Source: Bacillus sp. ISL-55
Lineage (GTDB): Bacteria; Bacillota; Bacilli; Bacillales; Cytobacillaceae
Assembly: GCF_018613155.1 (NCBI RefSeq)
Contig: NZ_JAGGQU010000042.1
Span: 1-32,405 of the forward strand
Direction of reading: 5' to 3'
Length of the DNA stretch: 32,405 nucleotides
Part shown: one piece after another, positions 4,675-29,656 of the stretch
Position numbering within the stretch: the first letter of the stretch is position 1
How the letters are laid out: each line of letters opens with the position of its first letter
Made by a program: the position numbers and the translations under genes
The notes under the pieces: generated by a model
Seen by the model: only the letters and a program-made list of their open reading frames with translations
Told to the model about the DNA's origin: nothing
Database searches by the model: none

Positions 4675-5143
4675 AACAGCTTTGTCCACTTCATCATTAA
4701 ACCTGTCAATAAAACGAAGGAATCATGACAGCTTTGGTCTCTCCACCATCAAACCTGTCAAAAAAACGAAGGAATCATGACAGCTTTGGTCTCACCACCA
4801 TCAAAGCTGTCAAAAAAACGAAGGAATCGTGACAACTTTGGTCTCTCCACCATCAAAGCTGTCAATAAAACGTAGTAATCGTGACAGCTTTGGTCTCTCC
4901 ACCATCAAAGCTGTCAAAAAAACGAAGGAATCGTGACAGCTTTGGTCTCTCCACCATCAAAGCTGTCAAAAAAACGTAGTAATCGTGACAGCTTTGGTCT
5001 CTACACCACCAAAGCTGTCAAAAAAACGAAGGAATCATGACAGCTTTGTCCACTTCATCACAAAACCTGTCAAAAAAAACATAGAGATCATGACAGCTTT
5101 GAACTCTCCAGCATCATAGCTGTCAAAATAACGACGGATTCTT
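4675..5143. repeat. Array 1: nine tandem 52-bp units with internal inverted repeats
   Basis: Units begin at 4675, 4727, 4779, 4831, 4883, 4935, 4987, 5039 (53 bp) and 5092. The core unit carries GACAGCTTTG, a 13-nt middle, CAAAGCTGTC (a perfect 10-bp inverted repeat in central units) and a spacer rich in A with CGAAGGAAT. Central units are nearly identical; units 1, 8 and 9 are more diverged. Units 1 and 8 share a TCCACTTCATCA variant of the middle segment. The array fills most of the 846-bp gap between the cba operon and the next gene. No ORF or terminator T-tract is associated with it. Confidence 0.95.
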
Positions 5144-5227
5144 GAATCCATTAGGAAAATAGGAATCACCATTCTAAGCGGAGTCTAATAAACTAATAGA
5201 AAATGGATCTTTCAGGAAGTGGAAAAT

Positions 5228-5353
5228 ATGCAAAAGTTTTATTGTGAACATTGCCGTCTCATCTATGATGAAATGCGATTATGTAAAAAATGTGGGGGAG
5301 CAGCAGAAAAGCAAATATGGATTGAAGTCCAAAAGCAGTCCAACGAAAAATAG
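5228..5353 (+). CDS. Small zinc-ribbon protein (41 aa)
   Basis: This is a 41-residue protein with two CxxC knuckles (Cys6/Cys9 and Cys19/Cys22) nine residues apart, starting MQKFYCEHCRLIYDEMRLC. The spacing suggests a single zinc-ribbon. ATG 5228 has GGAAGTGG upstream, and a terminator begins right at the stop, so it looks like an independent monocistronic gene. I do not recognise a named family. It could be a nucleic-acid-binding or metallochaperone-like miniprotein, but nothing in the sequence decides this. Confidence 0.72.
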   Translation: MQKFYCEHCRLIYDEMRLCKKCGGAAEKQIWIEVQKQSNEK

Positions 5354-5378
5354 CACCTGGTTTGGTGCTTTTTCTTTT
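5352..5378 (+). terminator. Terminator after the zinc-ribbon gene
   Basis: AGCACC-TGGTTT-GGTGCT stem followed by TTTTCTTTT. Confidence 0.85.
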
Positions 5379-5452
5379 ACAAGGCGGGTAAACCTGATTT
5401 TCCTGCGTATTATGTTAAAATTAAATCAATTTAGAGCGGGAGGATGATGTGA

Positions 5453-6226
5453 ATGTTTTTGCCATCTTTTGAATTGAAGGGGAAAACAGCGGTAGTGACC
5501 GGTGCGGGAAGAGGGATTGGCAGGGCGATCGCCATCGGCCTGGCTGAAGCTGGAGCAGATGTTGCCTTACTTGCAAGAACGGAGGAAGATCTTAAAGAAA
5601 CTTCTTCGGTAATTGAAAAATTAGGAAGTAAAACTCTAGTGCTCCCCACAGATGTAACCAATAGGGATCAAGTACATAAGTCAATTTCAGCAGTACGCAC
5701 TGAATGGGGAAAGATTGATATCCTCGTCAATAATGCTGGCATGAATATCCGTTCCAAGGCGTTAGAGGCGACAGATGAAGAATGGCAAACGATTATGGAT
5801 ACCAATTTAAAATCAGCCTTCATGATGTCTCAGGAAGCTGGAAAAATCATGAAGGAACAAGAAACAGGCGGAAAAATCATTAATATCGCGTCTGTTGCTG
5901 GACAAGTTGCCCTTAGGACAGGTGTCGTGTATGCAGCAACTAAGGCAGCCCTCATGCAGATGACAAAGGTGCTGGCAATGGAATGGGGACAATACGGTAT
6001 CAATGTGAACTCAATTGGTCCGTGGTATTTCAAAACACCTCTGACTGAAAAACTATTGGCTGATGAATCATATGTAAAAGATATCCTTGCAGTAACGCCG
6101 TTGAAAAGAATTGGGGAATTGCCTGAACTGGTAGGACCAGTTGTTTTCCTAAGTTCTAAAGCAGGAAACTATGTGACAGGCCAAACTTTATTCGTCGACG
6201 GAGGTATGACGATTCACGGATTCTGA
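5453..6226 (+). CDS. SDR-family oxidoreductase
   Basis: This 257-residue classical short-chain dehydrogenase/reductase has a cofactor loop TGAGRGIG (16-23), NNAG (93-96), active-site Asn118, Ser147, Tyr160 and Lys164 (YAATK), and the C-terminal VDGG. These mark an intact NAD(P)-dependent enzyme. The overall look is close to gluconate 5-dehydrogenase or 3-oxoacyl-ACP reductase homologues common in Bacillaceae; the substrate cannot be read from the sequence. The start ATG 5453 follows GGGAGGATGATGTGA; upstream ATGs run into a stop. There are no operon partners, and a terminator follows about 170 bp later. Confidence 0.85.
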   Translation: MFLPSFELKGKTAVVTGAGRGIGRAIAIGLAEAGADVALLARTEEDLKETSSVIEKLGSKTLVLPTDVTNRDQVHKSISAVRTEWGKIDILVNNAGMNIRSKALEATDEEWQTIMDTNLKSAFMMSQEAGKIMKEQETGGKIINIASVAGQVALRTGVVYAATKAALMQMTKVLAMEWGQYGINVNSIGPWYFKTPLTEKLLADESYVKDILAVTPLKRIGELPELVGPVVFLSSKAGNYVTGQTLFVDGGMTIHGF

Positions 6227-6393
6227 CCAGGTATCTACGGAATAAAGGAAGGGTTTGCTTTTATCCAGAAAGACCATGACAAGAATGAATCTGTCAAAAA
6301 CAAATAGATTGTCAACTGGTAAAGATTTTATAATGTATAAGGCAAGAGAGCATTGTATAATGAATTTGCACAGCAACTCCTTCAAAACGTTAG

Positions 6394-6426
6394 GCTTTTC
6401 CCAATTGCGGGGAAAGCTTTTTTTTT
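6394..6426 (+). terminator. Strong intrinsic terminator between the SDR gene and bpsA
   Basis: GCTTTTCCC and GGGGAAAGC form a 9-bp stem (one G-T pair), followed by nine T. It ends either the SDR transcript or a short independent transcript starting from the TATAAT boxes at 6329 and 6356. Confidence 0.88.
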
Positions 6427-6509
6427 CGTCTTAATGAAAGCTAGTTTGACTGTATACTCTCTGGGTAAATGGAAAAAGTAACCGTACATAGATGTGAGGA
6501 GAGTATAAC

Positions 6510-7595
6510 ATGCCAAGAGTCATATCCATCGCAGAAGCATTGCCGCCATTTTCAATAGAACAAGATAAGGTAATGGACTTCGCTGAAAAGCTATTCAAAG
6601 AATCCTTTAAGGATATAAATAGGCTGCTCACCGTTTTTCAGAACGGCCAAATCGAGAAACGCCATTTTGCCAAAGATCTTGATTGGTTTGAAAATGACCA
6701 TACCTTTGAAGAAAAGAATAATGCGTATATTGAGGCGGCTGTGGAACTTGGTGCAAAAGCAGTCTCAAATTGCCTGAAGAGTGATGTATTTTTAAAAGAC
6801 GAAGTCCATCTTGAAGAGATCGATGCTATTTTTACCATCAGCAGCACAGGGGTGTCAACTCCTAGCATTGATGCGAGAATAATGAATACATTGCCATCAT
6901 CACAATACACTAAAAGGATTCCGATATGGGGTCTCGGGTGTGCAGGTGGGGCAAGCGGGCTTTCACGTGCATATGAGTACTGCCTGGCCTACCCGAAGGC
7001 CAAGGTACTTGTGCTATCCATTGAATTATGCAGTTTAACCTTCCAGCGGAACGATCGATCAAAAAGCAATCTGATCGGAACTTCATTGTTTGCCGACGGG
7101 GTTGCATGTGCCCTTGTCTGTGGTGATGAGTCTGGCTATGAAAATATAATGAAAAAAGATTCTGCCCCTAATATTATCGGTACACAATCCACAACGATGC
7201 CCGATTCTGAAGATGTAATGGGATGGGAAGTGAAGAATGAGGGATTGTATGTCGTGTTTTCGAAGGATATACCGACAATCATTGAAAACTGGCTTCAGCC
7301 AAATGTCTTAAGGTTTTTGAATACCAATGGTCTTGATGTTCCAGACCTTGATCATTTTATTGCGCACCCAGGAGGTAAGAAAGTATTGGAAGCCTATGTT
7401 TCTGCCCTGAAGTTTCCTGAAACAATGACCAGGACTTCCCTCGATGTCTTAAAAGAATACGGGAATATGTCTTCTGCGACCATACTATATGTATTAAGAA
7501 GGTTCATGGAGACAGCGAAGGCAGGAGATCTTGGACTCGGTGCTGCACTTGGCCCAGGTTTTAGCTCTGAATTGCTATTGATGAGGTGGGAGTAA
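6510..7595 (+). CDS. bpsA: Type III polyketide synthase (alkylpyrone synthase)
   Basis: This chalcone/stilbene-synthase-fold enzyme has 361 residues. The catalytic triad is visible: Cys144 in GLGCAGGASG, His286 in AHPGGKK and Asn319 in EYGNMSSAT. The B. subtilis homologue BpsA (BcsA) condenses long-chain acyl-CoA with malonyl/methylmalonyl units to triketide and tetraketide pyrones. ATG 6510 follows GAGGAGAG. The next gene begins 1 nt after the stop and encodes the partner methyltransferase, so the pair forms an operon as in B. subtilis. The products are probably membrane-associated alkylpyrones. Confidence 0.93.
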   Translation: MPRVISIAEALPPFSIEQDKVMDFAEKLFKESFKDINRLLTVFQNGQIEKRHFAKDLDWFENDHTFEEKNNAYIEAAVELGAKAVSNCLKSDVFLKDEVHLEEIDAIFTISSTGVSTPSIDARIMNTLPSSQYTKRIPIWGLGCAGGASGLSRAYEYCLAYPKAKVLVLSIELCSLTFQRNDRSKSNLIGTSLFADGVACALVCGDESGYENIMKKDSAPNIIGTQSTTMPDSEDVMGWEVKNEGLYVVFSKDIPTIIENWLQPNVLRFLNTNGLDVPDLDHFIAHPGGKKVLEAYVSALKFPETMTRTSLDVLKEYGNMSSATILYVLRRFMETAKAGDLGLGAALGPGFSSELLLMRWE

Positions 7596-7596
7596 C

Positions 7597-8166
7597 GTGG
7601 TGTTTCTCATATTTGTAGGTTTGATTATCCTTCAGCGGATAACAGAGCTGGTCATCGCGAGAAAAAATGAGGCCTGGATGAAAGATCAGGGAGCCGTAGA
7701 ATTCGGCCAGGGGCATTATCCCGCGATGGTGTCGATCCATACAGCTTTTTTCATATCCTTTATTTTGGAAGTGAATCTATTGGGTAAAAATCTTTCAGAT
7801 TATTGGCCTGTCCTGCTTGCTCTGTTTATTTTTACACAGACAATGAGAATTTGGGCACTAGCTTCATTGGGCAGGTTCTGGAATACAAAAATCATCATTC
7901 TTCCTGGAGCTAATGTCATTAAGAGAGGACCTTATAAAATTATCAAGCATCCAAATTATTTAATTGTTGCGATCGAGCTGATTGTGATTCCATTGATGTT
8001 CAATGCCTATATTACATTGGCGGTCTTTACTTTGTTGAATATCCTCATTTTATCAATCAGGATTCCTGCAGAGGAAAAGGCATTGAGAGAGTTAACAAAG
8101 TATGAATCTGAATTCTCTAAACAGGGGCGTTTCGTCCCGAATTTGTTAAATAAGTGTGACAATTAG
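7597..8166 (+). CDS. bpsB: Isoprenylcysteine methyltransferase-family protein, alkylpyrone O-methyltransferase
   Basis: This 189-residue membrane protein has four or five hydrophobic segments and the ICMT-family signature RGPYKIIKHPNY (about 109-120) that binds S-adenosylmethionine. In B. subtilis, BpsB (YpbQ) methylates the alkylpyrones made by BpsA. It starts with GTG (7597 or 7600) one base after bpsA, using GGTGGGAG inside the end of bpsA, so translation is coupled. No terminator follows before the Fur-box promoter. Confidence 0.9.
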   Translation: MVFLIFVGLIILQRITELVIARKNEAWMKDQGAVEFGQGHYPAMVSIHTAFFISFILEVNLLGKNLSDYWPVLLALFIFTQTMRIWALASLGRFWNTKIIILPGANVIKRGPYKIIKHPNYLIVAIELIVIPLMFNAYITLAVFTLLNILILSIRIPAEEKALRELTKYESEFSKQGRFVPNLLNKCDN

Positions 8167-8176
8167 CCTCCTTCCA

Positions 8177-8230
8177 TTGAAAATGATAATCAGTAGTGCT
8201 ACACTTTTCTTAAGATGAAAATTATTCTCA
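8177..8230 (+). promoter_or_regulatory. Promoter overlapped by two Fur boxes
   Basis: TTGAAA (8177-8182), 17 bp, TACACT (8200-8205) form a good sigma-A promoter. TGAAAATGATAATCA (8178-8192) covers the -35 and TGAAAATTATTCTCA (8216-8230) lies over the start of transcription. Each matches the 7-1-7 Fur consensus TGATAATNATTATCA at 12 of 14 defined positions. Repression by iron-loaded Fur is the natural reading. Confidence 0.78.
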
Positions 8231-8264
8231 GTTAAAAAAGTATCTTAAGGATGGTGTCGTACCA

Positions 8265-8351
8265 ATGGTTTCCATGTTAGTTGTTTCGACCGTAGCTGCT
8301 TATTCCTTACTTATGAAATATGTATTGAGCAATGTACTAAAACCTCATTAA
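8265..8351 (+). CDS. Fur-box-controlled 28-residue hydrophobic peptide
   Basis: The frame reads MVSMLVVSTVAAYSLLMKYV and then ends LSNVLKPH: one hydrophobic helix with a short basic tail. The ribosome site is AAGGATGGTG, 8 nt before ATG 8265. It has its own promoter with two Fur boxes and its own terminator (8376-8409), so it is a complete, very small iron-regulated transcription unit. B. subtilis has small Fur-regulated proteins FbpA, FbpB and FbpC that work with the sRNA FsrA; whether this peptide is related I cannot tell. It could also be a membrane miniprotein that modulates a transporter, or the transcript itself could act as an RNA. Confidence 0.68.
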   Translation: MVSMLVVSTVAAYSLLMKYVLSNVLKPH

Positions 8352-8375
8352 TAAACAATATTCTCATTTAGAAGG

Positions 8376-8409
8376 AAAGCCCGGACTGAGGTTCGGGCTT
8401 TTTCTTTTT
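8376..8409 (+). terminator. Terminator after the Fur-controlled peptide
   Basis: AAAGCCCG..C-TGAG-G..CGGGCTTT stem followed by TTCTTTTT. Confidence 0.87.
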
Positions 8410-8538
8410 GTCCTTTAACGGAGCGATTAATGTGCTTTTCATTACTTTTTCTAAGGGACAAAAATGAAATTATAGGAAAAGACCGAAAAATCATATAAAA
8501 TAAAGTTATTCACAATTTTGTCACAAGGGGTTAGAGGA

Positions 8539-11500
8539 ATGGGCCAAACTATTGCACAGCAAGATCAAAAGCTTCTTGGAAAGATTTTATCAATATATAA
8601 CTTAATGAATACAAATCATGATGAAGATATAGCTAAAAAAGTAAAGGAATTGGGCAGGAAAGCCGTTGAAGAAGAATTTTCAATCGCTTTTTGCGGACAC
8701 TTTTCTGCAGGGAAATCGAGCATGATCAACAAGTTGATTGGCGATAACATTCTGCCATCAAGCCCTATCCCAACCAGTGCGAATCTGGTGCGGCTAAAAT
8801 CAGGTAATGAATATGCCAAGGTCATCTTTAAGGACGGCGGGTCACGTCTGTATCCGGCTCCGTATGATTATGATACGGTCAAAACCTACTGCAAGGATGG
8901 TGAACAAATCCAGGCTATAGAAATCAGCCATAATGGAGCTGAGTTCCTGGAACAGGCAGTCATTATGGATACACCAGGAATCGATTCTACAGATGATGCC
9001 CATCGGATTGCCACTGAATCTGCGCTGCATCTTTCAGATATCGTCTTTTATATGATGGATTATAACCATGTCCAATCCGAACTGAATTTCCTTTTTACAA
9101 AGGAATTAACGGATGCAGGAAAAGAACTTTACTTGATTATCAACCAGGTCGACAAACATCTGGATGCAGAACTGTCTTTTAATCAATTTAAGCAAAGTGT
9201 TGAAGACTCTTTTGCGGACTGGGGAGTAAAGCATGCAGGGATTTTTTATACGTCGCTGAAATACCCTGAATCACCACATAACCAGTTTCAAGAGCTTCGT
9301 TCATTTATCATGGAGCGAAAGGATAGAAGAAAAGAAATACTGCCAGTTTCAATTTTTAAGTCATTGGAAAAGCTGTCTGAGGACCATTTGGGGAGTCTTC
9401 AGCAGGATGTTGCTGAAGAAATAGATCAGTTTGAGACCATCCTGGAAGGGATTTCTGAAAGTGAGCGACAAAAGCTTTCAGATGAGCTCGATAAAATAAA
9501 GATGCAGCTTGAAAAAATTCAGGTTGAAAGGGACCCTGAACGGGAATTCCGTGATGGTCTCAAGGATATCTTAAAGAACGCGTATCTAATGCCTTTCCAG
9601 ACAAGGGAATTGGCCGAGGCGTATCTGCAGTCAAGGCAGCCAGACTTTAAAGTTGGCTTGTTGTTCTCTAAACAAAAAACAGAACAGGACCGCTCAGCTA
9701 GATTGGATAATTTCTACCGGGAACTTGAGGATAAAGTACAATCCCAGCTCGACTGGCATATCAAGGACTTTTTATCAAAGCTTTTCAAGAAGCATAATCT
9801 ATCGCAGACCGAGCTGCAGGCAGCAGCAAATGGTTTCAAAATCGAGTTTCAAAAAGATCTGCTCTCAGAAGCAGTTAAGCCTGGCGCGAGACTATCAGGG
9901 GACTATGTCCTCAATTATACGAATGATGTCGCTGAGGCTTTGAAGAATCTTGCAAGAAGAAAGATTGAGCCAATTAAGGAACTTTTCATTGACTATGTAA
10001 AAGGTCATGATGATGAGGAGGTAAATGAACTTCTCAAAAAAGAAGAAAATCTCGAGAAGCTTTTATCTGCCTGGAAAGCATTGAATTCAATTCAAAACAA
10101 TCTCGACCAGCAACGAAGACTTGTGTCGGAAATTCTTTATGGCGAACATGCAGGATATAAAGAGGAAGATTTCCTTGTTTTTAAAGCTGATAAAGACGAG
10201 CCGGAAGTGATTTTAAATAATGACTTTGCTACCGAAAGCACAACTAGAGAAAAGGCCGTGCCATCAGTAGAAGCTCCTGTAGAGCAAACCGGGAATGGTA
10301 TAGAGCAATTTCACGAAAAACAACAGCAGCTGGTCAGGAAAATGAATTTCACATCCGAACATATTGAAGATATACCTGGCTTGAAAAAAATCGCCCGTGA
10401 ACTGAAGGAAAAAGCATCACGCCTTAAAGAGAGAGAATTTACTGTTGCTTTGTTTGGAGCATTCAGTGCAGGTAAGTCCTCTTTCGCGAATGCTCTGGTA
10501 GGGGAGCGGATTTTGCCGGTATCACCAAATCCGACAACTGCTGCCATTAATAAAATTAAACCGGTGACAACTGAGCATCGACACGGAACGGTAATTGTCA
10601 AAATCAAAAGTGCCGGAGAATTGCTAAAAGAGCTGGACCGATCGTTAGGATTGTTCGGCAAACAAACATCTGATTTCGAGCGAGCGATCGATCAAATCAA
10701 CAGTCTTAAATTCGAGGATAGCGGTTACAGCGCGGCAGAAAAGACGCATTACTCATTCCTGCAGGCTTTTGCCAAAGGATTCAGCAATTTTAAAAACAGC
10801 TTCGGGGAAAAGCTTTTGGTGGATCTTGAATCGTTCCGAGGTTATGTAGCTGAAGAGGAGAAATCCTGTTTTGTGGAGTGGATTGAGGTTTATTATGATT
10901 GTGAGCTTACGAGAGAGGGGATCACCCTTGTTGATACACCAGGTGCTGATTCAATCAATGCCCGCCATACTGGGGTAGCCTTCGATTATATCAAGAATTC
11001 GGATGCTATATTATTCGTAACCTACTATAACCACGCGTTCTCAAAAGCTGATCGTGAGTTCCTGATTCAGCTTGGCAGGGTCAAGGATACCTTTGAACTT
11101 GATAAAATGTTCTTCATTGTGAATGCCGTTGATTTAGCGAATTCGGAGGAAGAACAGGAAGCCGTTTTAGAGTATGTCGAGGACCAGCTTGTTCAATACG
11201 GCATCAGGAAGCCGCATCTATTTCCTGTTTCCAGTTTAAAGGGCCTGAATGCGAAGCTCGTAAATGAGACTGGCGGAGACCAGCTGTTTAATCAATTTGA
11301 AAAGGCGTTTTACACCTTCATCGCCAATGACCTGATGAATATGGCTGTCGAGGCCGCTGAGTCAAAATGGCGTCAGGCTGTGGGTACAATCGAGGAAATG
11401 ATCAACTCTGCAGAAGAAGACAAGGCAGCGAGGGCAGATAAACGACGAAAACTCCTTTCGGAAAAAGAAGAAATGCTGCTTATTTTATCACAAAAGAACT

Positions 11501-12189
11501 CAGCAGTACTTGAGGAGCGCTTGAACCTTGAGGCCGATGAATTGACTTATTACATTCGGCAGCGTGTCTTCATCCGTTTCGGTGACTTCTTTAGGGAGTC
11601 ATTCAATCCTGCGCTATTGAAAGATGATGGACGCAATTTGAAGAAGGCCCTTGAAACAGCGCTCGATGAGTTGATTGAAAGCATTGGATATGACCTGGCA
11701 CAGGAGATGAGAGCGACGTCTTTAAGAACCGAAGCGTTTATTATCCGGATCTTGAAAGAGTTCCAGGAAGCACTGTTAAGTGAACTAGTGAAAATTAACT
11801 CATCGATTTCCATTTCTGCAACAGATAATGGACCGCTTGCCGGAATAGAATTTGAAACAGCATACCAAAACATTGATCGTAACAATTTTAGAAAAGCCCT
11901 GGGCATGTTTAGGAATCCTAAATCCTTCTTTGAGAAGAATGAAAAGAAATTAATGGCGGATGAACTTGAAAAGCTTTTACATGGTCCTGCAGGTGAGTAT
12001 CTTGAAGCCGAGAATGATAGGCTTAAAGATCATTATCAGCCTGAATTGGTCCGGGAGTTTGCAAAAGTCCAGGAGGATTTTTCAGAGCAGATCACAGAGT
12101 ATTTTGAAGGGATTACATCTGCACTTGAAGATAACTTCTCTATTGATACTGTTAAAAGGGCACTATTAAATATTAGAAACTTTCAATAA
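8539..12189 (+). CDS. dynA: Double-headed bacterial dynamin
   Basis: This is a 1216-residue fusion of two dynamin-like GTPases. Head 1 has P-loop GHFSAGKS (53-60), DTPGID (144-149) and NQVDK (202-206). Head 2 has GAFSAGKS (640-647), DTPGAD (799-804) and NAVD (862-865). Each head is followed by long helical, coiled-coil stalk segments. B. subtilis DynA (YpbR, 1193 aa) fuses membranes without nucleotide in vitro and protects the membrane against phage and pore-forming stress. ATG 8539 is preceded by GGGG and AGAGGA; an in-frame TTG at 8518 is less likely. It sits between bpsAB and the small Cys-rich gene, as in B. subtilis. Confidence 0.95.
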   Translation: MGQTIAQQDQKLLGKILSIYNLMNTNHDEDIAKKVKELGRKAVEEEFSIAFCGHFSAGKSSMINKLIGDNILPSSPIPTSANLVRLKSGNEYAKVIFKDGGSRLYPAPYDYDTVKTYCKDGEQIQAIEISHNGAEFLEQAVIMDTPGIDSTDDAHRIATESALHLSDIVFYMMDYNHVQSELNFLFTKELTDAGKELYLIINQVDKHLDAELSFNQFKQSVEDSFADWGVKHAGIFYTSLKYPESPHNQFQELRSFIMERKDRRKEILPVSIFKSLEKLSEDHLGSLQQDVAEEIDQFETILEGISESERQKLSDELDKIKMQLEKIQVERDPEREFRDGLKDILKNAYLMPFQTRELAEAYLQSRQPDFKVGLLFSKQKTEQDRSARLDNFYRELEDKVQSQLDWHIKDFLSKLFKKHNLSQTELQAAANGFKIEFQKDLLSEAVKPGARLSGDYVLNYTNDVAEALKNLARRKIEPIKELFIDYVKGHDDEEVNELLKKEENLEKLLSAWKALNSIQNNLDQQRRLVSEILYGEHAGYKEEDFLVFKADKDEPEVILNNDFATESTTREKAVPSVEAPVEQTGNGIEQFHEKQQQLVRKMNFTSEHIEDIPGLKKIARELKEKASRLKEREFTVALFGAFSAGKSSFANALVGERILPVSPNPTTAAINKIKPVTTEHRHGTVIVKIKSAGELLKELDRSLGLFGKQTSDFERAIDQINSLKFEDSGYSAAEKTHYSFLQAFAKGFSNFKNSFGEKLLVDLESFRGYVAEEEKSCFVEWIEVYYDCELTREGITLVDTPGADSINARHTGVAFDYIKNSDAILFVTYYNHAFSKADREFLIQLGRVKDTFELDKMFFIVNAVDLANSEEEQEAVLEYVEDQLVQYGIRKPHLFPVSSLKGLNAKLVNETGGDQLFNQFEKAFYTFIANDLMNMAVEAAESKWRQAVGTIEEMINSAEEDKAARADKRRKLLSEKEEMLLILSQKNSAVLEERLNLEADELTYYIRQRVFIRFGDFFRESFNPALLKDDGRNLKKALETALDELIESIGYDLAQEMRATSLRTEAFIIRILKEFQEALLSELVKINSSISISATDNGPLAGIEFETAYQNIDRNNFRKALGMFRNPKSFFEKNEKKLMADELEKLLHGPAGEYLEAENDRLKDHYQPELVREFAKVQEDFSEQITEYFEGITSALEDNFSIDTVKRALLNIRNFQ

Positions 12190-15499: not shown

Positions 15500-15570
15500 C
15501 GAAAGCCGGAAGCGCCACGAATGGCTAGGCGTTCTCGAAGTAGAAAATATATAAACTGGATTATAAGAAA

Positions 15571-15615
15571 AGGCTGGTTTCAAAGCGTTATGCTTTGAAA
15601 TCAGCCTCTTTTTTT
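15571..15615. terminator. Bidirectional terminator between convergent genes
   Basis: AGGCTGGTTTCAAAG (15571-15585) pairs with CTTTGAAATCAGCCT (15593-15607) with one G-T pair, then CTTTTTTT. On the minus strand the end is TTTTCTTAT. It overlaps the last codons of the leftward transporter gene. Confidence 0.85.
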
Positions 15616-16526
15616 GGGAAGAACTTACGAATAAAACTTTCGAATTTGCCAGAAGGCAATTCCGCAAAAACCATACCGGAAAAAATTAGCAAACAGCCGG
15701 CAAGGGCACCGTATGTAAGACGTTCATCAGCCCAGAAGTAAGCTGTAATAGCAGCAAAGACTGGCTCCATTGCAAAAATCAAAGCAACTCGAGTGGCCGT
15801 CGTATGTTTCTGGAAATTGGTCTGGATGAAAAACGCCAGTGCGGTTGCAAGAATAGATGTGACCAACAGGGCGACCATGACATTCGCTGAAAAAATGACC
15901 TCAGGGTTGAATGCCCTCTTCCAATCCTCGAATAGGACAGAAGATACTGCAGATAGGGCAGCAACAGTTGAGATTTGGACTGTCGTCAACAGGAGTGTTG
16001 GATAACTGCTGCTGTATTTTCCAGTAAAAACAATGTGCAGAGCAAAACCGGCTGCACATATGAGGACAAAGCCGTCTCCAATGTTAAGGTTTGAAACATC
16101 TGACATTGTTAAAAGATATAGACCTGCAGTTGCTGCAGAGACACCCGCAATAGAGTTGATGCTTGGGCGCTGCTTTAAAATCCCGATCATCAGCAATGGT
16201 ACCAGGACTACACTTAAACCAGTGATAAAGCCGGCTTTGGATGAGGTTGTATACAACAGGCCTAATGTTTGGAATGCATAGCCAATGAAAAGAAAAAAGC
16301 CGAGCATTATTCCTGATACAATTAATTTTCGATCCAGCTTTTTTAGCTGATCTTTTTCAAAAAACATAAGCCAAAGTCCTAATAGGATTGCTGCCAGGGT
16401 GAAGCGGACAGCATTGAAGGCTTGTGGCTCAAGAAAAGAAATTGCATTTTGTACAAGAACAAAAGTTGCGCCCCAGATGAGGGCTACGAATAGTAAGCTG
16501 AGATCCGCGAAAGTTGATGCTTTCAT
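15588..16526 (-). CDS. EamA/DMT-family transporter
   Basis: This 312-residue protein has ten predicted membrane helices in two EamA repeats (about 8-140 and 150-290), with the typical WGATFVLVQNAI start and the second-repeat pattern ATALAFFIQT...FAMEPVFAAI. Members export metabolites or amino acids; the substrate cannot be read here. ATG 16526 starts one base after the stop of the RNase HI-like gene (TAACATG), with AAAGGAA upstream inside that gene, so the two are translationally coupled. The C-terminus is a short basic cytoplasmic tail. Confidence 0.9.
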   Translation of the reverse strand: MKASTFADLSLLFVALIWGATFVLVQNAISFLEPQAFNAVRFTLAAILLGLWLMFFEKDQLKKLDRKLIVSGIMLGFFLFIGYAFQTLGLLYTTSSKAGFITGLSVVLVPLLMIGILKQRPSINSIAGVSAATAGLYLLTMSDVSNLNIGDGFVLICAAGFALHIVFTGKYSSSYPTLLLTTVQISTVAALSAVSSVLFEDWKRAFNPEVIFSANVMVALLVTSILATALAFFIQTNFQKHTTATRVALIFAMEPVFAAITAYFWADERLTYGALAGCLLIFSGMVFAELPSGKFESFIRKFFPKKEADFKA

Positions 16527-17987: not shown

Positions 17988-18009
17988 TGTGGTTAACGGT
18001 TAAAGATAT

Positions 18010-18233
18010 CCAAAGCCGAAAAGTCCATGAACGGAATTTAATGGACATTTCAGCCTGAGTTCGAAGTCAAAATGTCTAAGAATGTGCATTTAATAGACAT
18101 TTCAACAGGAGTTCGAAGCCAAAATGTCTAAGAAAGTGAATTTAATGGACATTTCAACTGGAGTTCGAAGTCAAAATGTCTAAGAAAGTGAATTTAATGG
18201 ACATTTTAGAAAGAGTCCAAAGTCAAAATGTCC
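18010..18233. repeat. Array 2: tandem 52-bp units with internal inverted repeats
   Basis: A degenerate partial unit (18010-18042) is followed by units at 18043, 18095, 18147 and a shortened one at 18199. Each unit has (G/A)GACATTT, a middle containing GAGTTCGAAGTC or a variant, AAATGTC(T/C), and a spacer ending GAATTTAAT. The pairing partner changes with the arm in units 2 (AGACATTT/AAATGTCT) and 4 (GGACATTTT/AAAATGTCC). The array fills the 333-bp gap between the zinc-finger gene and cspD. Its sequence is unrelated to arrays 1 and 3. Confidence 0.93.
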
Positions 18234-18280
18234 ATAAAGCTATTCAAAGTTGGTATTCACAACTAAATTAAATAAATCAA

Positions 18281-18307
18281 AAAAGGCTGACGCTATGCGC
18301 CAGCCTT
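18281..18307 (-). terminator. Terminator of cspD
   Basis: AAGGCTGACGC (18283-18293) pairs with GCGCCAGCCTT (18297-18307) with one G-T pair. The A-run before it gives a T-run on the minus strand. Confidence 0.88.
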
Positions 18308-18320
18308 CAATTCTTTTAAA

Positions 18321-18521
18321 TTATAGTTTTACTACGTTCGCAGCTTGTGGTCCACGGTTTCCTTCAACGATTTCAAAAGAAACTTCTTGGCCTTCTTCTA
18401 GTGACTTATAGCCATCTCCCTGGATAGCTGAGAAGTGAACGAATACATCGTCTCCGCCTTCTACTTCGATGAACCCAAAACCTTTTTCATTGTTAAACCA
18501 TTTTACTTTACCGTTTTGCAT
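18321..18521 (-). CDS. cspD: Cold shock protein
   Basis: This 66-residue single cold-shock domain has RNP1 KGFGFIEV (about 13-20) and RNP2 VFVHFSAI (about 26-33). It starts [10 protein letters not shown] and ends [10 protein letters not shown]. It is an RNA/ssDNA chaperone that melts mRNA structure. The start is ATG 18521, with GGGAGGAAAG 6 nt upstream. The CspD name follows gene order; B. subtilis CspB, CspC and CspD are very similar, so the paralogue label is less sure than the family. A leader of about 88 nt is predicted, as for cold-shock genes. Confidence 0.93.
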
Positions 18522-18615
18522 GTTAAACTTTCCTCCCATGACTTTCGCGACACAAAATATGTGCCAAAGTTGAATATTATCATTCAATGGATACATCTGC
18601 CGTTTTGAGATGACA

Positions 18616-18643
18616 ATTATAATCTATTAAATGATGTCTTAAA
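18616..18643 (-). promoter_or_regulatory. Candidate promoter of cspD
   Basis: On the minus strand TTTAAG (18638-18643), 16 bp, then a perfect TATAAT (18616-18621). Apart from this promoter and the cspD leader, I see only AT-rich DNA in the rest of the 18522-18863 gap. Confidence 0.5.
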
Positions 18644-23052: not shown

Positions 23053-23057
23053 ATCAA

Positions 23058-23085
23058 AACACCTGACTGCTGTCAGGTGTTTTTT
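23058..23085 (+). terminator. Terminator after mntR
   Basis: AACACCTGAC-TGCT-GTCAGGTGTT perfect stem with a T-run; it also faces the convergent small gene. Confidence 0.9.
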
Positions 23086-23091
23086 CGATAC

Positions 23092-23310: not shown

Positions 23311-23432
23311 GATAATCTCTCCTTTCATCCTCCTAGTCTTGCACTTTTTAAGGAAAAATAAACTTAAGAGGAATTCCTTCTTCTATAACGAAATAACTAT
23401 TATAGGCAATAAAAAAATAGGCAGGTGAGCTT

Positions 23433-24116
23433 ATGAGTACCTTCAATTGGGAATTGGAATCTGAAAAACAGTGGGACAATATGGCTGCCACGTGGAATTC
23501 CAGAAGCAGGGGGATGTGGGAAACTGGAAGCCGCAAGGATATAGTGCCATTCATCAAGCAGTTTGTGCCAGCTGGTTCTCTGATTTGTGATTTAGGCTGC
23601 GGAGATGGAACAGGCTCTGAGAAGCTGGCCGAAGCAGGCTATGTGGTTACCGGAATCGATGTATCTGAGGAGATGCTTGAGAGAGCCAGGCAGAAACCGG
23701 GGAATGAAGATTGTATTTTTAGAAAGGGGAATCTTGCGGATTGCGGAAGCCCTGATAGCCATTTTGATGCGGTGATGGCCATCAATTCAATAGAATGGAC
23801 GAACCACCCCTATGAATCTTTAAAAGAAATGGCTCGGATCCTCAAGCCCAATGGTTATGCCTGCATTGGCATTCTTGGACCGACTGCAGGACCGAGGACA
23901 AACAGCTTCAGAAGGCTTTATGGAGAAGAAGTAATCTGTAATACGATCATGCCATGGGAACTTGAGAGGCTTGCATTGGAAAGTGGCTGGAGAAAAGCCG
24001 GTGAGTTCGGAGTATTTAAAAAAGCGGCAGAGCAGCTTCCCCAAGGCTCATTGCCGGCAGAACTGCAGCAGGCACTGTCATTTATGTGGGTTTTCATGTT
24101 CCAGGTTATAAAATAA
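23433..24116 (+). CDS. Class I SAM-dependent methyltransferase
   Basis: This 227-residue protein has a Rossmann methyltransferase core: motif I CDLGCGDGTG (52-61), the acidic end of strand 2 in GIDVSEEML (about 74-82), motif IV FDAVMAINSIEW and the post-motif RILKPNGYACIGI. The substrate is unknown; the fold resembles UbiE/small-molecule enzymes. ATG 23433 follows GCAGGTGAG. The AIM24 gene starts 12 bp after its stop, so the two form an operon. Confidence 0.85.
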   Translation: MSTFNWELESEKQWDNMAATWNSRSRGMWETGSRKDIVPFIKQFVPAGSLICDLGCGDGTGSEKLAEAGYVVTGIDVSEEMLERARQKPGNEDCIFRKGNLADCGSPDSHFDAVMAINSIEWTNHPYESLKEMARILKPNGYACIGILGPTAGPRTNSFRRLYGEEVICNTIMPWELERLALESGWRKAGEFGVFKKAAEQLPQGSLPAELQQALSFMWVFMFQVIK

Positions 24117-24128
24117 GGAGGCATTATT

Positions 24129-24821
24129 ATGAGTCGATATTCAATCAAGGAGTTTGTGAGCAACACGAAGCAGCAGGATAAAGGGGAAGGGCTATTTGAA
24201 CTGGAAACACCGAGAATGCTGGAAATTAATTTGAATGGCCAGGTATGGTCAAAGGCTGGAGCGATGGTTTCCTATCGTGGCCAGATCAAGTTTGAACGCG
24301 AGGGCGTGCTTGAACACGGAATTGGCAAGATGTTCAAGAAGGCATTAACAGGTGAAGGTGCTTCATTAATGAAGGCAAATGGTAATGGGAAGCTATATCT
24401 GGCTGATCAGGGTAAGAAAATATCAATCTTGCATTTGCAAAACGAGGCAATTTTCGTTAACGGAAATGACCTGCTGGCATTTGAGCCTTCCATCAACTGG
24501 GATATCAAGCTGATGCGCCGGGTCGCCGGAATGCTGTCCGGAGGATTGTTCAATGTCCGCCTCGAGGGTACAGGAATGGTAGCGATCACATCCCATTATG
24601 AGCCGCTGACCCTGCTTGTCAGTCCAGACAATCCTGTTTATACAGACCCGAACGCAACAGTAGCCTGGTCTGGAAATCTTCAGCCGGAATTCGTAACAGA
24701 TATTTCATTCAAAACATTCCTTGGCCGTGGAAGCGGAGAATCCATCCAGATGAAATTCAGCGGTGAAGGATTCGTTGTCGTCCAACCCTTTGAAGAAGTC
24801 TATTATGCTCCGCAAGGTTAA
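24129..24821 (+). CDS. AIM24-family protein
   Basis: This 230-residue, beta-rich protein of the AIM24/TIGR00266-like family (tryptophan RNA-binding attenuator-like fold) contains repeated GxGxx/LxxG segments such as [34 protein letters not shown] and [18 protein letters not shown]. Bacterial members have no settled function; the yeast namesake acts in mitochondria. ATG 24129 follows AAGGAGGCATT. It is cotranscribed with the methyltransferase and ends at a shared bidirectional terminator. Confidence 0.88.
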
Positions 24822-24850
24822 TAGAAGGTCCGGGCATAGGTCCGGAATGG

Positions 24851-24881
24851 AGAAAGGCATCGAATCAATCGATGCCTTTTC
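24851..24881. terminator. Bidirectional terminator between AIM24 and metA
   Basis: AAAGGCATCGA (24853-24863) and TCGATGCCTTT (24869-24879) form a perfect 11-bp stem ending at the metA stop codon. T-richness is modest on both sides. Confidence 0.78.
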
Positions 24882-25789
24882 TAATCCCATTCATAAGGAG
24901 TTTCCTGATATACATAATAATTCAGCCAATTGGAAAAGAACAGATGGGCATGTGACCTCCAGCGGTTTGTCGGTTTTTTATCAGGATTATCCTGTGGGAA
25001 ATAGTTTTCTGGCATGACAATTTCAATGCCTTTTTCCTTATCCCTTAAATATTCTTCTGCAAGTGTTGTGGCTTCGTATTCAAGGTGGCCGGTAATCATG
25101 ATTCTTTTGCTGTCTTTGCTGGAAATGATCAAGGCGCCTGCTTCATCTGATGAGGCCAATAGCTTAAGCTGTGGATGGTTTTGCAATGCCTCTTTGGATA
25201 TATCGGTATTCCGTGAATGAGGAGCAATGAATTCATCGTCGAACCCTCTTAGGAGCTTTTCAGTATGGTCAAGGACTCTGTGGGTGAATACGCCTGAGCA
25301 CTTCCTGGCAAGGACGAATTTATTTATGCCATAGTGATGATATAAAGCGGCCTGTGCTCCCCAGCATATGTGTAAGGTGGAAGTGACATTCCGTTCAGTC
25401 CAGTCAAGGATTTCCGTCAGTTCATTCCAATAGTTTACTTCCTCAAATTCCATCAGTTCGATTGGTGCACCTGTAATGATCATGCCGTCATATTTCTTTT
25501 CTTTTACTTGATCGAATGTTTGATAAAACTCTTCTAGATGGTATTGTGATGTGTTTTTCGAATCATATGTAGCGGTCTTTAAAAAAGTTATGTTCACCTG
25601 GAGTGGCGTATTTCCGAGCAGCCGCAGCAGCTGTCTTTCTGTTTTTTCTTTTTCGGGCATTAAATTCAGGATCAATATATTCAACGGCCGGATATCCTGT
25701 TTGGCAGCCCGGCTGTCATCCATAATAAAAATATTTTCTCTTTCCAGTATTTCCTTTGCTGGCAAGTGAAGCGGTATTTTTATTGGCAA
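24881..25789 (-). CDS. metA: Homoserine O-acetyltransferase
   Basis: This 302-residue enzyme activates homoserine for methionine synthesis. The catalytic residues are Cys142 (HICWGAQA), His235 and Glu237 (GHLEYE). Residue 111 is Glu ([10 protein letters not shown]). In the MetA family, Glu111 is known to select acetyl-CoA and Gly111 succinyl-CoA, so acetylation is predicted in spite of the homoserine-succinyltransferase name. The start is TTG 25789, with AAGGGAGGT 6 nt upstream; upstream in-frame codons run through that site. The 5' leader is only about 35 nt, so no S-box riboswitch fits. Confidence 0.93.
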
Positions 25790-25830
25790 AGTATAACCTC
25801 CCTTTTGGAAAACTAAAATCAATAATTTTT

Positions 25831-25859
25831 ATTATAGTCTGAATTCTTTCGCGGAGCAA
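25831..25859 (-). promoter_or_regulatory. Promoter of metA
   Basis: On the minus strand TTGCTC (25854-25859), 17 bp, perfect TATAAT (25831-25836). The predicted start is near 25824. Confidence 0.65.
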
Positions 25860-25970
25860 TTGGCTAAAGAGGAAATTTTATGACAAATAAATATTTTTTA
25901 CCTGATAGTATTTCACTGATGGTAAAATATAAAATGGTAAGCATATAGAGAATATCTGGGGGGATTGGAA

Positions 25971-27659
25971 ATGGGAACAAATATTCAAGTTAAGTCAGAT
26001 ATTGAAATTGCTCGTGACAGTAAAATGAAACCGATTGTTGATATTGCAGCAAGCATTGGCCTGGATGCCGATGAAATTGAGCTGTTTGGTAAGTATAAAG
26101 CGAAGCTGTCTTCAGAAGCTTTGGCTAAGTTAAAAACAAAAGAAAGCGGCAAGGTCGTCCTTGTTACTGCGATTAACCCTACTCCAGCCGGTGAAGGAAA
26201 ATCGACTGTAACGGTCGGACTTGCGGATGCATTGAACAAGCTAGGTAAAAAAACAATGATTGCTATGCGTGAGCCTTCATTAGGGCCAACTATGGGAATC
26301 AAGGGCGGTGCAACAGGCGGAGGTTTCGCGCAGGTGCTTCCGATGGAGGATATCAACCTTCACTTTACGGGTGACCTGCATGCAATTACAACAGCGAATA
26401 ATGCGCTGGCTGCTTTGATTGATAATCATCTGCAGCAGGGCAACAAGCTGAACATTGATCAGCGCAGAATCGTTTGGAAGCGCGCTCTCGACTTGAATGA
26501 CCGTGCATTGAGAAAAGTGATCGTCGGACTGGGCGGGCCTATGCAGGGCGTACCTCGTGAAGATGGCTTCGATATTACAGTTGCATCAGAAATCATGGCT
26601 GTCCTCTGCCTTGCGAGCGATCTTAAAGATTTAAAACTCCGCCTGTCAAAGATGGTCGTTGCTTATAATTTTGAAAAACAGCCTGTCACTGTGGGCGACC
26701 TGGGAGTAGAAGGGGCTTTGACTCTTTTATTGAAGGAAGCAGTAAAGCCGAACCTTGTCCAGACGATTGAACATACTCCAGCACTGATCCATGGCGGACC
26801 CTTTGCAAACATAGCGCATGGATGCAACAGTGTCATCGCTACCGAGGCTGCGTCCAAGCTTGCTGATTTTGTCGTTACGGAAGCCGGATTCGGTGCTGAT
26901 CTAGGGGCAGAGAAGTTCTTGAATATTAAGGCAAGAACAGCGGGAATCGATCCGTCAGCCGTTGTCATAGTTGCAACCATCCGTGCACTGAAAATGCATG
27001 GTGGAATGAAGAAGACAGAATTGGTAAACGAAGATGTGCAGGCATTAAAGGACGGATTCACAAACCTGAAAAAGCATGTTGAGACGATTGCCAGCTTTGG
27101 CTTGCCATATGTAGTTGCGATTAACCGATTCATTACAGATACAGAGCTTGAAACCAACACATTGAAAGAGATGTGTGAGAATGCTGGAATCCCGGTTGCC
27201 TTGACGGAAGTTTGGGAAAAGGGCGGCGCCGGCGGAGTAGAGCTTGCAGAGAGACTTCTTGATGTAATTGAAAAAAGCGAAAATACATTTGCCCATCTTT
27301 ATGATTTGTCCGATTCGCTGGAGGATAAAATCAAGACGATTGCTTCCCAGGTTTATGGTGCGGAAGGAGTCGAGTTTTCCCCGAAAGCAAAGAAGCAGCT
27401 TATTGACTTTGAAGGATTCGGCTGGGGTGTGCTGCCAGTCTGTATGGCCAAAACACAGTATTCATTATCAGATGATCCGCAGAAACTAGGCAGGCCTTCA
27501 GGATTCACCATCACAGTAAGGGAACTGAAGCCATCAGTAGGTGCTGGATTCATCGTTGCATTGACAGGCGAAGTCATGACAATGCCTGGTTTACCGAAGC
27601 TTCCGGCAGCATTGAATATGGATGTTGATGAAGAGGGTAACGCAGTCGGATTGTTCTAA
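25971..27659 (+). CDS. fhs: Formate-tetrahydrofolate ligase
   Basis: This 562-residue enzyme makes 10-formyl-THF from formate, THF and ATP and feeds purine and fMet synthesis. It has the ATP-binding loop TPAGEGKST (71-79), the family signature [27 protein letters not shown] split over about 105-131, and the conserved end [25 protein letters not shown]-type tail. ATG 25971 has GGGGGGA upstream; the in-frame TTG 25965 is too close to it. It is divergent from metA, both being C1/methionine genes. A structured terminator region follows. Confidence 0.96.
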
Positions 27660-27672
27660 GTAAAACAAATCT

Positions 27673-27767
27673 TGGTCAGTTCTGCCAGGCATAGTGTCGA
27701 CGTGAGATTGTTTTTTCTATCGGACGCGACGTTGTGCAGAGCATCGGGCTGACCATTTTTTAATTTT
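27673..27767 (+). terminator. Long structured 3' region/terminator after fhs
   Basis: TGGTCAG (27673-27679) pairs with CTGACCA (27749-27755), followed by TTTTTTAATTTT. Inside, TCTGC/GCAGA and GTCG.CGT/ACG.CGAC helices can form a long branched hairpin of about 80 nt, unusually large for a terminator. Confidence 0.6.
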
Positions 27768-27808
27768 GGCAAAAAGCATGATTTTGGCTGGTGAAAGGAG
27801 TGGAAGCT

Positions 27809-28339
27809 TTGTTTGACCCGACAGCTTTTGAAAACATCAAAGTCGTATTCGAAGGCGATATATATGACAGGGATTTGAGCGGAGAAATTATTGTGATTGA
27901 TCGCAATGACTGGATTAATGCCGCCAAGATGTCGCGTAAATATGAAATTTCATTCACTAAAAGAGGTTATGAACCGGATCTTTTATCGGCAATGATGACC
28001 ATTGAGGCCGGATTGGAGAACCTCTCAGCGGAGCTATTGGAAAGTGTGCATGCCAAACAGCTTGCAGGGTGTAAAGTGAGTATTTCTTTCTCAATTCATC
28101 ATAAAAATGAAAAGGTTGTTTTTAAGGAAGTACATAAAGGGTTGGAAGAAATATGGGGAAGAGATCGGGCGATAGTCCAAACCGCCTTGCTTGACCCATT
28201 GGGAGATAAACCGACGATCAAAAGCCATGTGCAGGTTTCCTTCAACCGTCTTGTGTATGAAGAACAGATTGACGATTTATCAGAAATGGTGGATTATATG
28301 ATCGCTTCACTTGAAAAAATCAAAAAAATTATTGAGTGA
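27809..28339 (+). CDS. Conserved hypothetical protein (176 aa)
   Basis: I do not recognise a named family. The 176-residue soluble protein starts MFDPTAFENIKVVFEGDIYD and has a beta-rich N-terminal half, a helix around 65-85 (LENLSAELLES) and a C-terminal coiled-coil-like helix (DDLSEMVDYMIASLEKIKKIIE). TTG 27809 has GGAGTGG upstream; GTG codons at 27791 and 27800 overlap that site. It is monocistronic between fhs and degV with a weak terminator behind it. Confidence 0.78.
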   Translation: MFDPTAFENIKVVFEGDIYDRDLSGEIIVIDRNDWINAAKMSRKYEISFTKRGYEPDLLSAMMTIEAGLENLSAELLESVHAKQLAGCKVSISFSIHHKNEKVVFKEVHKGLEEIWGRDRAIVQTALLDPLGDKPTIKSHVQVSFNRLVYEEQIDDLSEMVDYMIASLEKIKKIIE

Positions 28340-28344
28340 ATAAT

Positions 28345-28385
28345 AATTCCTGTCTCAGAAGCAGGAATTTCTGTGTTGTTTTCAG
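28345..28385 (+). terminator. Weak terminator after the 176-aa gene
   Basis: AATTCCTG and CAGGAATT form a perfect 8-bp stem with a 9-nt loop. The tail TTCTGTGTTGTTTT is T-rich but interrupted. Confidence 0.55.
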
Positions 28386-28557
28386 AATAGTCTATTAACG
28401 GATGGATTTAAACATATAATATAAAAGTTCTGATAGTGGTGAAGGTATCTCATGATTTGTACAAGCATTTCTGTCACTTATTAAAGGGGAATTGGCGGAT
28501 ATCTAGAAACCACGATATTCAAATAGAACTGAAAAAAGTAAAATAGGGGGAGATTGT

Positions 28558-29406
28558 TTGAAGAAAATCGCCTGGGTTACAGATAGTACAGCATACCTGG
28601 ATGAGGAGTTAAAGAACCATCCTGATGTGTATCAAGTACCAATGACCATTGTATTGGATGATGCAGAATACCTTGATGGAAAGGATCTGACTGCAGAAGA
28701 GCTATATAAAAGATTAAAATCGGTGAAAACAGCTCCTAAAACGTCACAGCCGCCTGTGGGGGTCTTTATGGAACTTTATAAGGAGCTTGAAAAAGATTAT
28801 GACCTCGTATTCTCAGTCCTGATTTCATCCAAGCTAAGCGGAACAGTTGCCTCAAGTGTACAAGCTGAACAAGATGTTAACATTCCTGTCATTACCTTTG
28901 ATTCTAAAATTCTCACATATCCATTGACGTCCCTATTAAAAAAAGGAATAGCATTAGCTGAACAGGGAGCATCAGTCGATGAAATCAAGGAGAAGCTGGA
29001 AACCATCCGTGATTCCAATGAAACCTACGTCATGATCGGGAGCCTTGAGCAGCTGCATCGAAGCGGCCGTATGTCAGGCATGCAATTCTATCTAGGAAGC
29101 ATGCTAAATATCAAACCTATCATCAGTATTGAAGATGGCGCTCTAAATACAAAGGAAAAGGTCCGCAGCGATAAAAAAGCGCGCGAGAAGATATTTGATT
29201 ATCTGAAAGAATCGCATAATAAATATGGTGTTAAGGAAGTGTACATTCTATACGGCCTTCATAAACAGGTTGCTGACGAATGGCAAAGCCAGCTTGAAGC
29301 AGCATTCCCTGATATCCGTTTCCTCAGCTGTCCGATCGGAGCCGTAATCGGTGTACATGCTGGTGAACATACAATCGGGATCAGCTGGAATAATGCAGAT
29401 GCATAA
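28558..29406 (+). CDS. DegV-family fatty-acid-binding protein
   Basis: This 282-residue protein has the DegV pattern: WVTDSTAYL near the N-terminus, PKTSQPPVGVFMELY (about 60-74), SSKLSGT (about 90-96), FDSKILTYP, and GSLEQLHRSGRMSG (about 161-174). Family members (FakB) bind a fatty acid and present it to the kinase FakA for phosphorylation; no fakA lies here. The start TTG 28558 follows AGGGGGAGATTG. It is followed by a strong terminator, so it is monocistronic. Confidence 0.9.
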   Translation: MKKIAWVTDSTAYLDEELKNHPDVYQVPMTIVLDDAEYLDGKDLTAEELYKRLKSVKTAPKTSQPPVGVFMELYKELEKDYDLVFSVLISSKLSGTVASSVQAEQDVNIPVITFDSKILTYPLTSLLKKGIALAEQGASVDEIKEKLETIRDSNETYVMIGSLEQLHRSGRMSGMQFYLGSMLNIKPIISIEDGALNTKEKVRSDKKAREKIFDYLKESHNKYGVKEVYILYGLHKQVADEWQSQLEAAFPDIRFLSCPIGAVIGVHAGEHTIGISWNNADA

Positions 29407-29432
29407 GTGCCGATTTGGCACTTTTTCTTTTT
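29405..29432 (+). terminator. Terminator after the degV-family gene
   Basis: AAGTGCC-GATTT-GGCACTT stem starting in the stop codon, then TTTCTTTTT. Confidence 0.87.
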
Positions 29433-29501
29433 GTCCGGCAAAACTGAGCCAATTGACTTGCTTCGGTACTTATAGAGAATGTTTGAATAGTATGCCTCCC
29501 A

Positions 29502-29656
29502 CGGACAAACAGAGAGCGGAACCCGGAGAAAGTGTCCGATAGAGGGTCTCTAACGGACAAACAGAGGGCAGAACCTGTAGAAAGTGTCCGATAGAAGGTC
29601 TCTAATGGAAAAACAGGGAGCAGTACCTGAGGAAAGTGCTCGATAGACAGGCTGAT
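29502..29656. repeat. Array 3: three tandem 52-bp units with internal inverted repeats
   Basis: Units begin at 29502, 29554 and 29606; the third is diverged. Units 1 and 2 carry CGGACAAACAGAG, a middle with GAACC, AAAGTGTCCG, and ATAGA(G/A)GGTCTCTAA. TGTCCG pairs with the CGGACA of the next unit, and TAGAG with CTCTA inside gives a long hairpin with a GGT loop. The array occupies the 357-bp gap between the degV-family gene and the HD hydrolase. Its sequence is unrelated to arrays 1 and 2. Confidence 0.92.

Follow-up and report, generated by a model that had tools for sequence, protein, structure and literature searches.

Many 52-bp intergenic repeat arrays of Bacillus sp. ISL-55 share an inverted half-site layout of fixed spacing

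The contig NZ_JAGGQU010000042.1 of Bacillus sp. ISL-55 (assembly GCF_018613155.1), analysed here over its entire 32,405 nucleotides (the window), carries three intergenic tandem arrays with a 52-bp unit, in which nearly every unit holds GACA, 25 bp, the inverted complement TGTC and a further 19 bp before the next GACA, all in one register. This layout extends well beyond the window: GACA-N25-TGTC-N19-GACA occurs 712 times on the forward and 726 times on the reverse strand of the 4.52-Mb draft genome, as against 0 and 1 for a reversed control pattern. The genome belongs to Mesobacillus or its close kin, since the HD-domain protein of the window is 93% identical to its counterpart in Mesobacillus selenatarsenatis. 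As a class the arrays are a rediscovery, described more sharply, because constant-length 52-nt repeats have already been reported from Bacillus (Subirana and Messeguer 2021, PMC8161180). We favour, with a probability of about 0.4, a reading in which the arrays are double-stranded protein-binding lattices that repeat every five helical turns.

An earlier note on this DNA, made from the letters alone, had placed three 52-bp arrays here, with one pair of inverted arms per unit and a single 53-bp unit in array 1. Tandem Repeats Finder (TRF) bore out the arrays (Table 1), and the anchors at 5039 and 5092 confirm the longer unit. The note had also held that the arrays have no common sequence, which is wrong, as the core and its spacing are common to all three, and what differs is the arms and spacers. 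When every GACA-N18-36-TGTC in the window was listed, the 33-nt GACA-N25-TGTC site appeared eight times in array 1, four times in array 2 and twice in array 3, in the same unit register throughout; the core is altered in unit 1 of array 1 and unit 3 of array 3. The differing spans of 33, 35 and 37 nt given for the three arrays are probably one site whose arms were cut at different lengths. Where the note knew of no named family, the class is the one published in PMC8161180.

Table 1. Positions in the window of the three arrays, their core sites and the neighbouring hairpins
Feature	Position	Strand	Description
Array 1	4668..5145	.	9.2 units of 52 bp, GACAGCTTT type; TRF match 86%, indel 0%
Array 1 GACA-N25-TGTC sites	4727, 4779, 4831, 4883, 4935, 4987, 5039, 5092
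Array 2	18009..18234	.	About 4 full units and a shortened first unit, GACATTT type; TRF 18034-18232, 3.8 x 52 bp, match 87%; the span 18009-18234 is also called as one 104-bp double unit
Array 2 GACA-N25-TGTC sites	18044, 18096, 18148, 18200
Array 3	29501..29656	.	3 units, the last one altered, TATCGGACA type; TRF 29501-29647, 2.8 x 52 bp, match 85%
Array 3 GACA-N25-TGTC sites	29504, 29556
Terminator-like hairpin	29405..29423	+	Just 3' of the DegV gene, ends before array 3
Terminator-like hairpin	18282..18308	-	3' of the csp gene, outside array 2

Array statistics were drawn from a 1.57-Mb sample of the same genome, in which TRF found 105 intergenic arrays. The period histogram, compiled from intergenic arrays only, peaks at 51-53 bp (62 arrays), so that the lack of a 52-bp peak, which would have told against the earlier note, is not seen in this genome; the other periods include 20-21 bp (16 arrays), 40-42 bp (6), 63 bp (1) and one 104-bp double unit, which together with the 62 makes up the set of 63 arrays used below. 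In the same sample, the single-gap spectra had their maxima at 25 (282, with 7 to 40 for most other gaps) and 19 (247, with 7 to 35 for the others), and on the forward strand the gap pair (25,19) was met 209 times, with 4 for the runner-up pair. Half-sites found fuzzily, at 10 of 13 matches, gave an inner gap of 25 in 261 of 270 cases and an outer gap of 19 in 240 of 248. The exact GACA-N25-TGTC core is present in 37 of the 63 arrays, and a dyad axis that is significant against base shuffles (p<0.05) in 43, with about 3 expected, so that in this genome the inverted arms have not been lost from most arrays. In many of the core-less arrays the dyad has a different sequence (TTGGTGACC/GGGCACCAA, ACCCTTAT/ATAAGGGT and TTCTATAAGCCC are examples), with arms placed about as far from the axis.

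The genome holds a number of sequence families that agree in length: at 70% single linkage the 63 arrays fall into 27 groups, all of period 51-53, of which 8 contain four to seven arrays and 19 are singletons. Two families keep a period of their own, 51 in all six TTCTATA arrays and 53 in all five ACCCTTAT arrays; three further families mix periods by one base, which the choice of consensus by TRF may partly explain. The best identity of a unit has a median of 0.962 within arrays and 0.755 between them, and no unit of the 63 arrays is matched at 95% identity by any other sampled array, so no recent movement is seen.

We then asked where within the unit variation lies. Neighbouring units differ at a mean of 7.1 positions (192 pairs), and a profile of mean within-array heterozygosity, taken over 32 of the 37 exact-core arrays and with GACA and TGTC at zero by construction, has its minimum at the half-sites and its maximum in the two spacers, whose lengths stay fixed; diversity was also profiled by distance from the axis. 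Flanking the cores, the values are 0.03-0.06 at positions -5 to -3, 0.12-0.13 at -2 and -1, 0.07-0.11 at +4 to +6, 0.02-0.14 at 26 to 28 and 0.03-0.08 at 33 to 37; the inner spacer reaches 0.14-0.28 and the outer 0.13-0.33. Over the 62 arrays TRF reported 12.1% mismatch and 0.72% indel columns, with 43 arrays lacking any indel, as compared with 2.4% indels in the 43 other intergenic arrays. That the gaps of 25 and 19 are near-constant in the most variable part of the unit supports the selection on geometry proposed in the earlier note; the other option that it named, a copying mechanism with a fixed unit size, may also apply. Its five-turn idea gains some support from period phase: between 18 and 64 bp, intergenic periods gather at multiples of 10.4 bp with R 0.84 and an offset of 0.1 bp (n=94), with R 0.61 and an offset of 0.2 when the 51-53 class is left out (n=32), and with R 0.45 when each distinct period is counted once (17 periods). 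Periods of both size classes lie close to whole turns. R is about equal at 10.2, 10.5 and 10.6 bp, and since related arrays are not independent the phase is support for helical facing and not proof of it.

The arrays are also unevenly placed. Flanking open reading frames (ORFs) were convergent for 20, codirectional for 26 and divergent for 2 of 48 arrays, which differs from all adjacent ORF pairs (195, 838 and 194; p 3e-6) and from gaps of at least 300 bp (45, 162 and 69; p 1e-6). These 48 come from 64 arrays of period 51-53 or 104; three at stretch ends were excluded, as were 13 that overlap by more than 60 bp with ORFs of 92-232 aa, ten of these ORFs lying mostly inside the array and three partly. 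Small genes are missed in this count because the ORFs are longest-first calls of at least 90 aa. In the window, array 2 lies between convergent genes, and array 3 is codirectional, beyond the terminator-like hairpin that follows DegV.

From the observed layout, constraint profile, location bias and locus histories (below), we infer double-stranded recognition, cooperative binding, helical facing and a boundary role. In favour, too, the layout recurs, with at least 10 forward matches to the pattern in 116 of 193 genomes of the family. Each unit has two inverted half-sites of about 13 bp, each made of an outer arm, the GACA core and a short inner edge. Cores are separated by 25 bp within a unit and by 19 bp from one unit to the next, which brings the repeat to 52 bp, and because this is close to five helical turns all units would face one side of the helix. 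A protein or set of paralogues might read the dyads, or the cruciform that they can form, and bind cooperatively along the array; the result would be a small complex with an architectural or boundary role, in most cases at a distance from divergent promoters, and the copy number of the arrays would change through unequal recombination or slippage. A bolder form of the proposal, which we consider quite doubtful, is a new chromosomal nucleoprotein lattice of Bacillales, in which an architectural protein or its paralogues would bind half-sites whose centres are alternately 29 and 23 bp apart, polymerise in five-turn steps and recognise dyad and spacing more than base sequence, the 20-21-bp arrays being a second, two-turn lattice. 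Repeats of constant 52-nt length have stood in the literature as a puzzle since 2020-2021, with no function known, and the fixed half-site layout makes it testable by asking which protein, if any, reads GACA-N25-TGTC-N19. A lattice protein, should one exist, would represent a novel type of chromosome organiser or gene boundary among Gram-positive bacteria; without one, the arrays would be the most rigid selfish palindromes that we know of.

Several observations weigh against a protein-binding lattice. The exact core is absent from 26 of the 63 arrays and a dyad at p<0.05 from 20, and for three of eight other 52-53-bp arrays from relatives the dyad test was not significant (p 0.16 to 0.74). One of the two divergent exceptions is array 1 of the window itself. 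With one pairwise aligner, substitutions per gap came to 13 in arrays and 5.2 in flanks, only 2.5-fold apart, in a cruder, weak aligner-based count (flanks at locus 3, 78 to 15, six pairs of four sequences). On either strand the consensus folds more stably than shuffled units do, with mean z of -2.14 and -2.33 over 37 arrays. No protein for the half-sites was found. The weakest point is that the outer arms are conserved within arrays and different between them, which base pairing in a hairpin or cruciform, or paralogous binders, would fit better than one protein of fixed specificity.

To follow the arrays through time, we compared the loci of the three window arrays in relatives, in which both copy number and locus occupancy vary. 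At locus 1 the exact core was found in 6 of 21 Mesobacillus genomes, with 8, 11, 7, 10 and 1 units and, at a locus cut by the sequence edge, 4; the other 15 fetched loci are without it. In genomes G070, G083 and G078 the intergenic DNA runs on uninterrupted, without an array, and in G089 it holds a one-unit insert with altered edges, which may be a seed or a remnant of a longer array. Locus 2 has the exact core in 14 of 21 genomes, at 1 to 9 copies and of the GACATTT type wherever inspected, with half-sites kept across the genus and spacers diverged; G070 has one altered unit, G086 is empty and G079 shows a run of N. When this locus was read, G072, G073 and G088 were without an anchor and G078, G079, G081 and G087 began from another start; the copy numbers are from a separate count. 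Locus 3 was read in the 12 nearest named relatives: the TATCGGACA type is present as one unit in L181, about five in L182, about four in L183 and about seven in L191, and as one unit plus an altered one in L184 and L185, whereas L186 carries six to seven units of the GACATTT type, unlike L191 and the window. L187 has an altered unit, and by reading no array was seen in L188, L189, L190 or L192. Arrays can therefore be gained, persist for long periods with shifting copy number, and at a given place can be replaced by, or regained as, another family.

Such histories also suit the strongest rival, which we hold to be unlikely but serious: that these are selfish palindromes resembling repetitive extragenic palindromic sequences and bacterial interspersed mosaic elements (REP/BIME), in which a palindromic unit of about 50 bp was inserted between genes by some transposase and then multiplied in tandem while serving no cellular function. 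The one-unit insert in G089 against empty sites, the 15 loci without the core, the change of family at locus 3, the scarcity of arrays between divergent genes and the membership of 44 of the 63 arrays in the eight multi-locus families would all be expected of such elements. So would the patchy spread, with at least 30 forward matches in 20 of 21 Mesobacillus genomes, as against 0 in G081. In a sample of other families of the order, 41 of 381 genomes, from 15 families, have at least 10 (counted by eye). Against mobility stands the absence of 95% unit matches already described, as does the fact that spacing and half-sites are still constrained at the old locus 2. A Y1 transposase of the REP-associated type (RAYT) was rejected as the mover, its presence not tracking copy number: a Y1 match is missing from 3 of the 20 array-bearing genomes, namely G085, G088 and G089 (forward matches 602, 76 and 592), and G081, with 0 matches to the pattern, does have one. 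None of the three window arrays matched a plasmid, and array 1 matched none of 50,697 phage records. A phage origin was likewise rejected, GGACA-N25-TGTCC-N17-GGACA being met in 56 of 2.9 million viral contigs with one match each, which by an uncomputed estimate is about chance.

REP/BIME elements (PMC3733652, as far as its accessible text goes) are likewise palindromes between genes that carry a conserved tetranucleotide and at times form clusters, but their GTAG or CGTC tags are unpaired and they are mostly proteobacterial, whereas here GACA and TGTC belong to the dyad and the period is constant. An unpaired tag next to a hairpin is not what the core shared by the window arrays presents; tags were not searched for in the other families. 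GTAG REPs go with RAYT transposases (PMC3733652), unlike the present arrays, whose copy number Y1 genes do not track. The Y1 result does not separate the arrays from CGTC REPs, because these have no dedicated transposase (PMC3733652).

A second alternative, in our view rather improbable, is that the arrays act as RNA, being transcribed as strings of hairpins that serve as small RNAs, sponges or 3'-end stabilisers. RNA-seq reads do cover the 52-nt repeats of B. coagulans, which are transcribed (Genes 2021, PMC8625621, from the part accessible), the outer arms are complementary in array after array despite their differing sequence and constrained within arrays, and folding exceeds that of shuffles, as noted. 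A sense RNA should show more G.U than A.C mismatches on the sense strand. Codirectional arrays gave 13 G.T and 31 A.C mismatches in the inner arms and 47 and 35 in the outer, no overall sense-strand G.U excess, and within-unit compensation was absent in seven of eight tests (p<0.05, against random re-pairing of arms among the units of each array), the exception being the inner-arm test with nine pairs and G.U allowed, at p 0.026; power is low for the outer stem because it has only 6 informative columns. Without a G.U excess, with little compensation and with both strands folding about equally, these tests speak against a one-strand RNA element and leave double-stranded half-sites or cruciforms. 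An RNA would have no evident need of a fixed spacer length, array 3 is located past the terminator-like hairpin after DegV, and an Rfam scan of the window gave the arrays no match at E<=1.

Very unlikely, finally, is a neutral by-product of hairpin-assisted slippage that makes and maintains arrays and fixes their length by its mechanism, which would account for units alike within (0.962) and unlike between arrays (0.755) and for freely varying copy number, but does not predict low half-site diversity, exact gaps of 25 and 19 in unlike arrays or the near absence of arrays between divergent genes. A protein-coding repeat was rejected, 52 not being a multiple of three. A ToxN-like gene, the mark of Type III toxin-antitoxin systems, was found in 0 of 21 genomes, and control genomes gave no match either.

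CRISPR arrays also join a palindromic constant part to a part of fixed length, a likeness that the present arrays share, but here the spacers repeat within an array. No Cas1 match was found in the ISL-55 genome or in 19 of the 21 genomes of the genus, and a Cas1 link was rejected: only G081 and G086, the Mesobacillus genomes with the lowest pattern counts, have Cas1, and over the 193 family genomes the association gave p 0.39 stratified and 0.29 unstratified.

The closest known relatives remain the Bacillus repeats of constant length, 52 nt, and variable sequence, of which the accessible part of PMC8161180 counts, across 176 genomes, 1886 arrays at 51-53 nt and 781 at 20-21 nt. There they are species-specific and partly conserved between strains, typically of 4-10 units, with many families per genome; B. 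selenatarsenatis, a close relative of the present strain, has 49 of 82 arrays at 51-53 nt and shares repeats with B. boroniphilus and B. subterraneus, while B. subtilis is a species listed as lacking the class. The authors noted short words together with their reverse within one repeat and proposed a polymerising nucleoid protein or small RNAs (PMC8161180). Unit length, the coexistence of several families and a companion 20-21-nt class are alike in both studies; the authors state no sequence conservation in the accessible text, whereas we find one exact core layout in 37 of 63 arrays. Their search required at least four units per array, as against the 9.2, 3.8 and 2.8 of the window. Their Table 1 gives 27 consensus repeats; with those of 50 and 54 nt (three) set aside, the 24 others include 5 with TGTC-N19-GACA and 13 with a dyad axis at p<0.05. 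The half-site layout was not found in the accessible part of PMC8161180, and no literature search was aimed at the layout itself. New here are the constrained half-sites with drifting spacers of fixed length, the scarcity of arrays between divergent genes, the range of 1 to 9 units that one locus shows across the genus, the occurrence at a second locus of an empty site and a site with a single unit, different repeat families at one locus in two relatives, and the lack of a Y1 transposase link or a plasmid match.

The sixteen 20-21-bp intergenic arrays of this genome (and six of 40-42) correspond to the second constant-length class of PMC8161180; they are mostly AT-rich, with short words such as TTTTATTGGCGA and TTTTTATAGCGA, for example at G000 C14:53101-53193, C19:2792-2905 and C5:50252-50371. 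Across L181 to L214, all 16 arrays with a period of at least 50 are of 52 or 53 bp. In 320 kb of G081 two arrays have a period above 45, both of 52 bp and of a sequence unlike the pattern; they form a separate family, GTAAAAGGTAACGCAAGAGCG...GCACTCCC, at L263:10739-11670 (about 18 units) and 15523-15872 (about 7), and a similar 52-bp family of about 24 units lies at L190:2372-3633. L191 (JAGGQZ010000018.1) and L186 (NZ_VEEP01000009.1) are titled Chryseobacterium sp. ISL-80 and Cytobacillus oceanisediminis, but their DNA here is Mesobacillus-like, with 82-84% protein identity and the same synteny by eye, so the names or assemblies may be wrong.

Elsewhere in the window, Rfam matched a T-box leader at 242-475, above the gathering score and 5' of an ORF that by eye resembles an aminoacyl-tRNA synthetase, a cspA thermoregulator at 18279-18638 over the csp gene, with a score about at the gathering threshold, and MicC, below the gathering score. 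At 8518-12189 lies the gene for a 1223-aa protein, two stretches of which match Dynamin_N.

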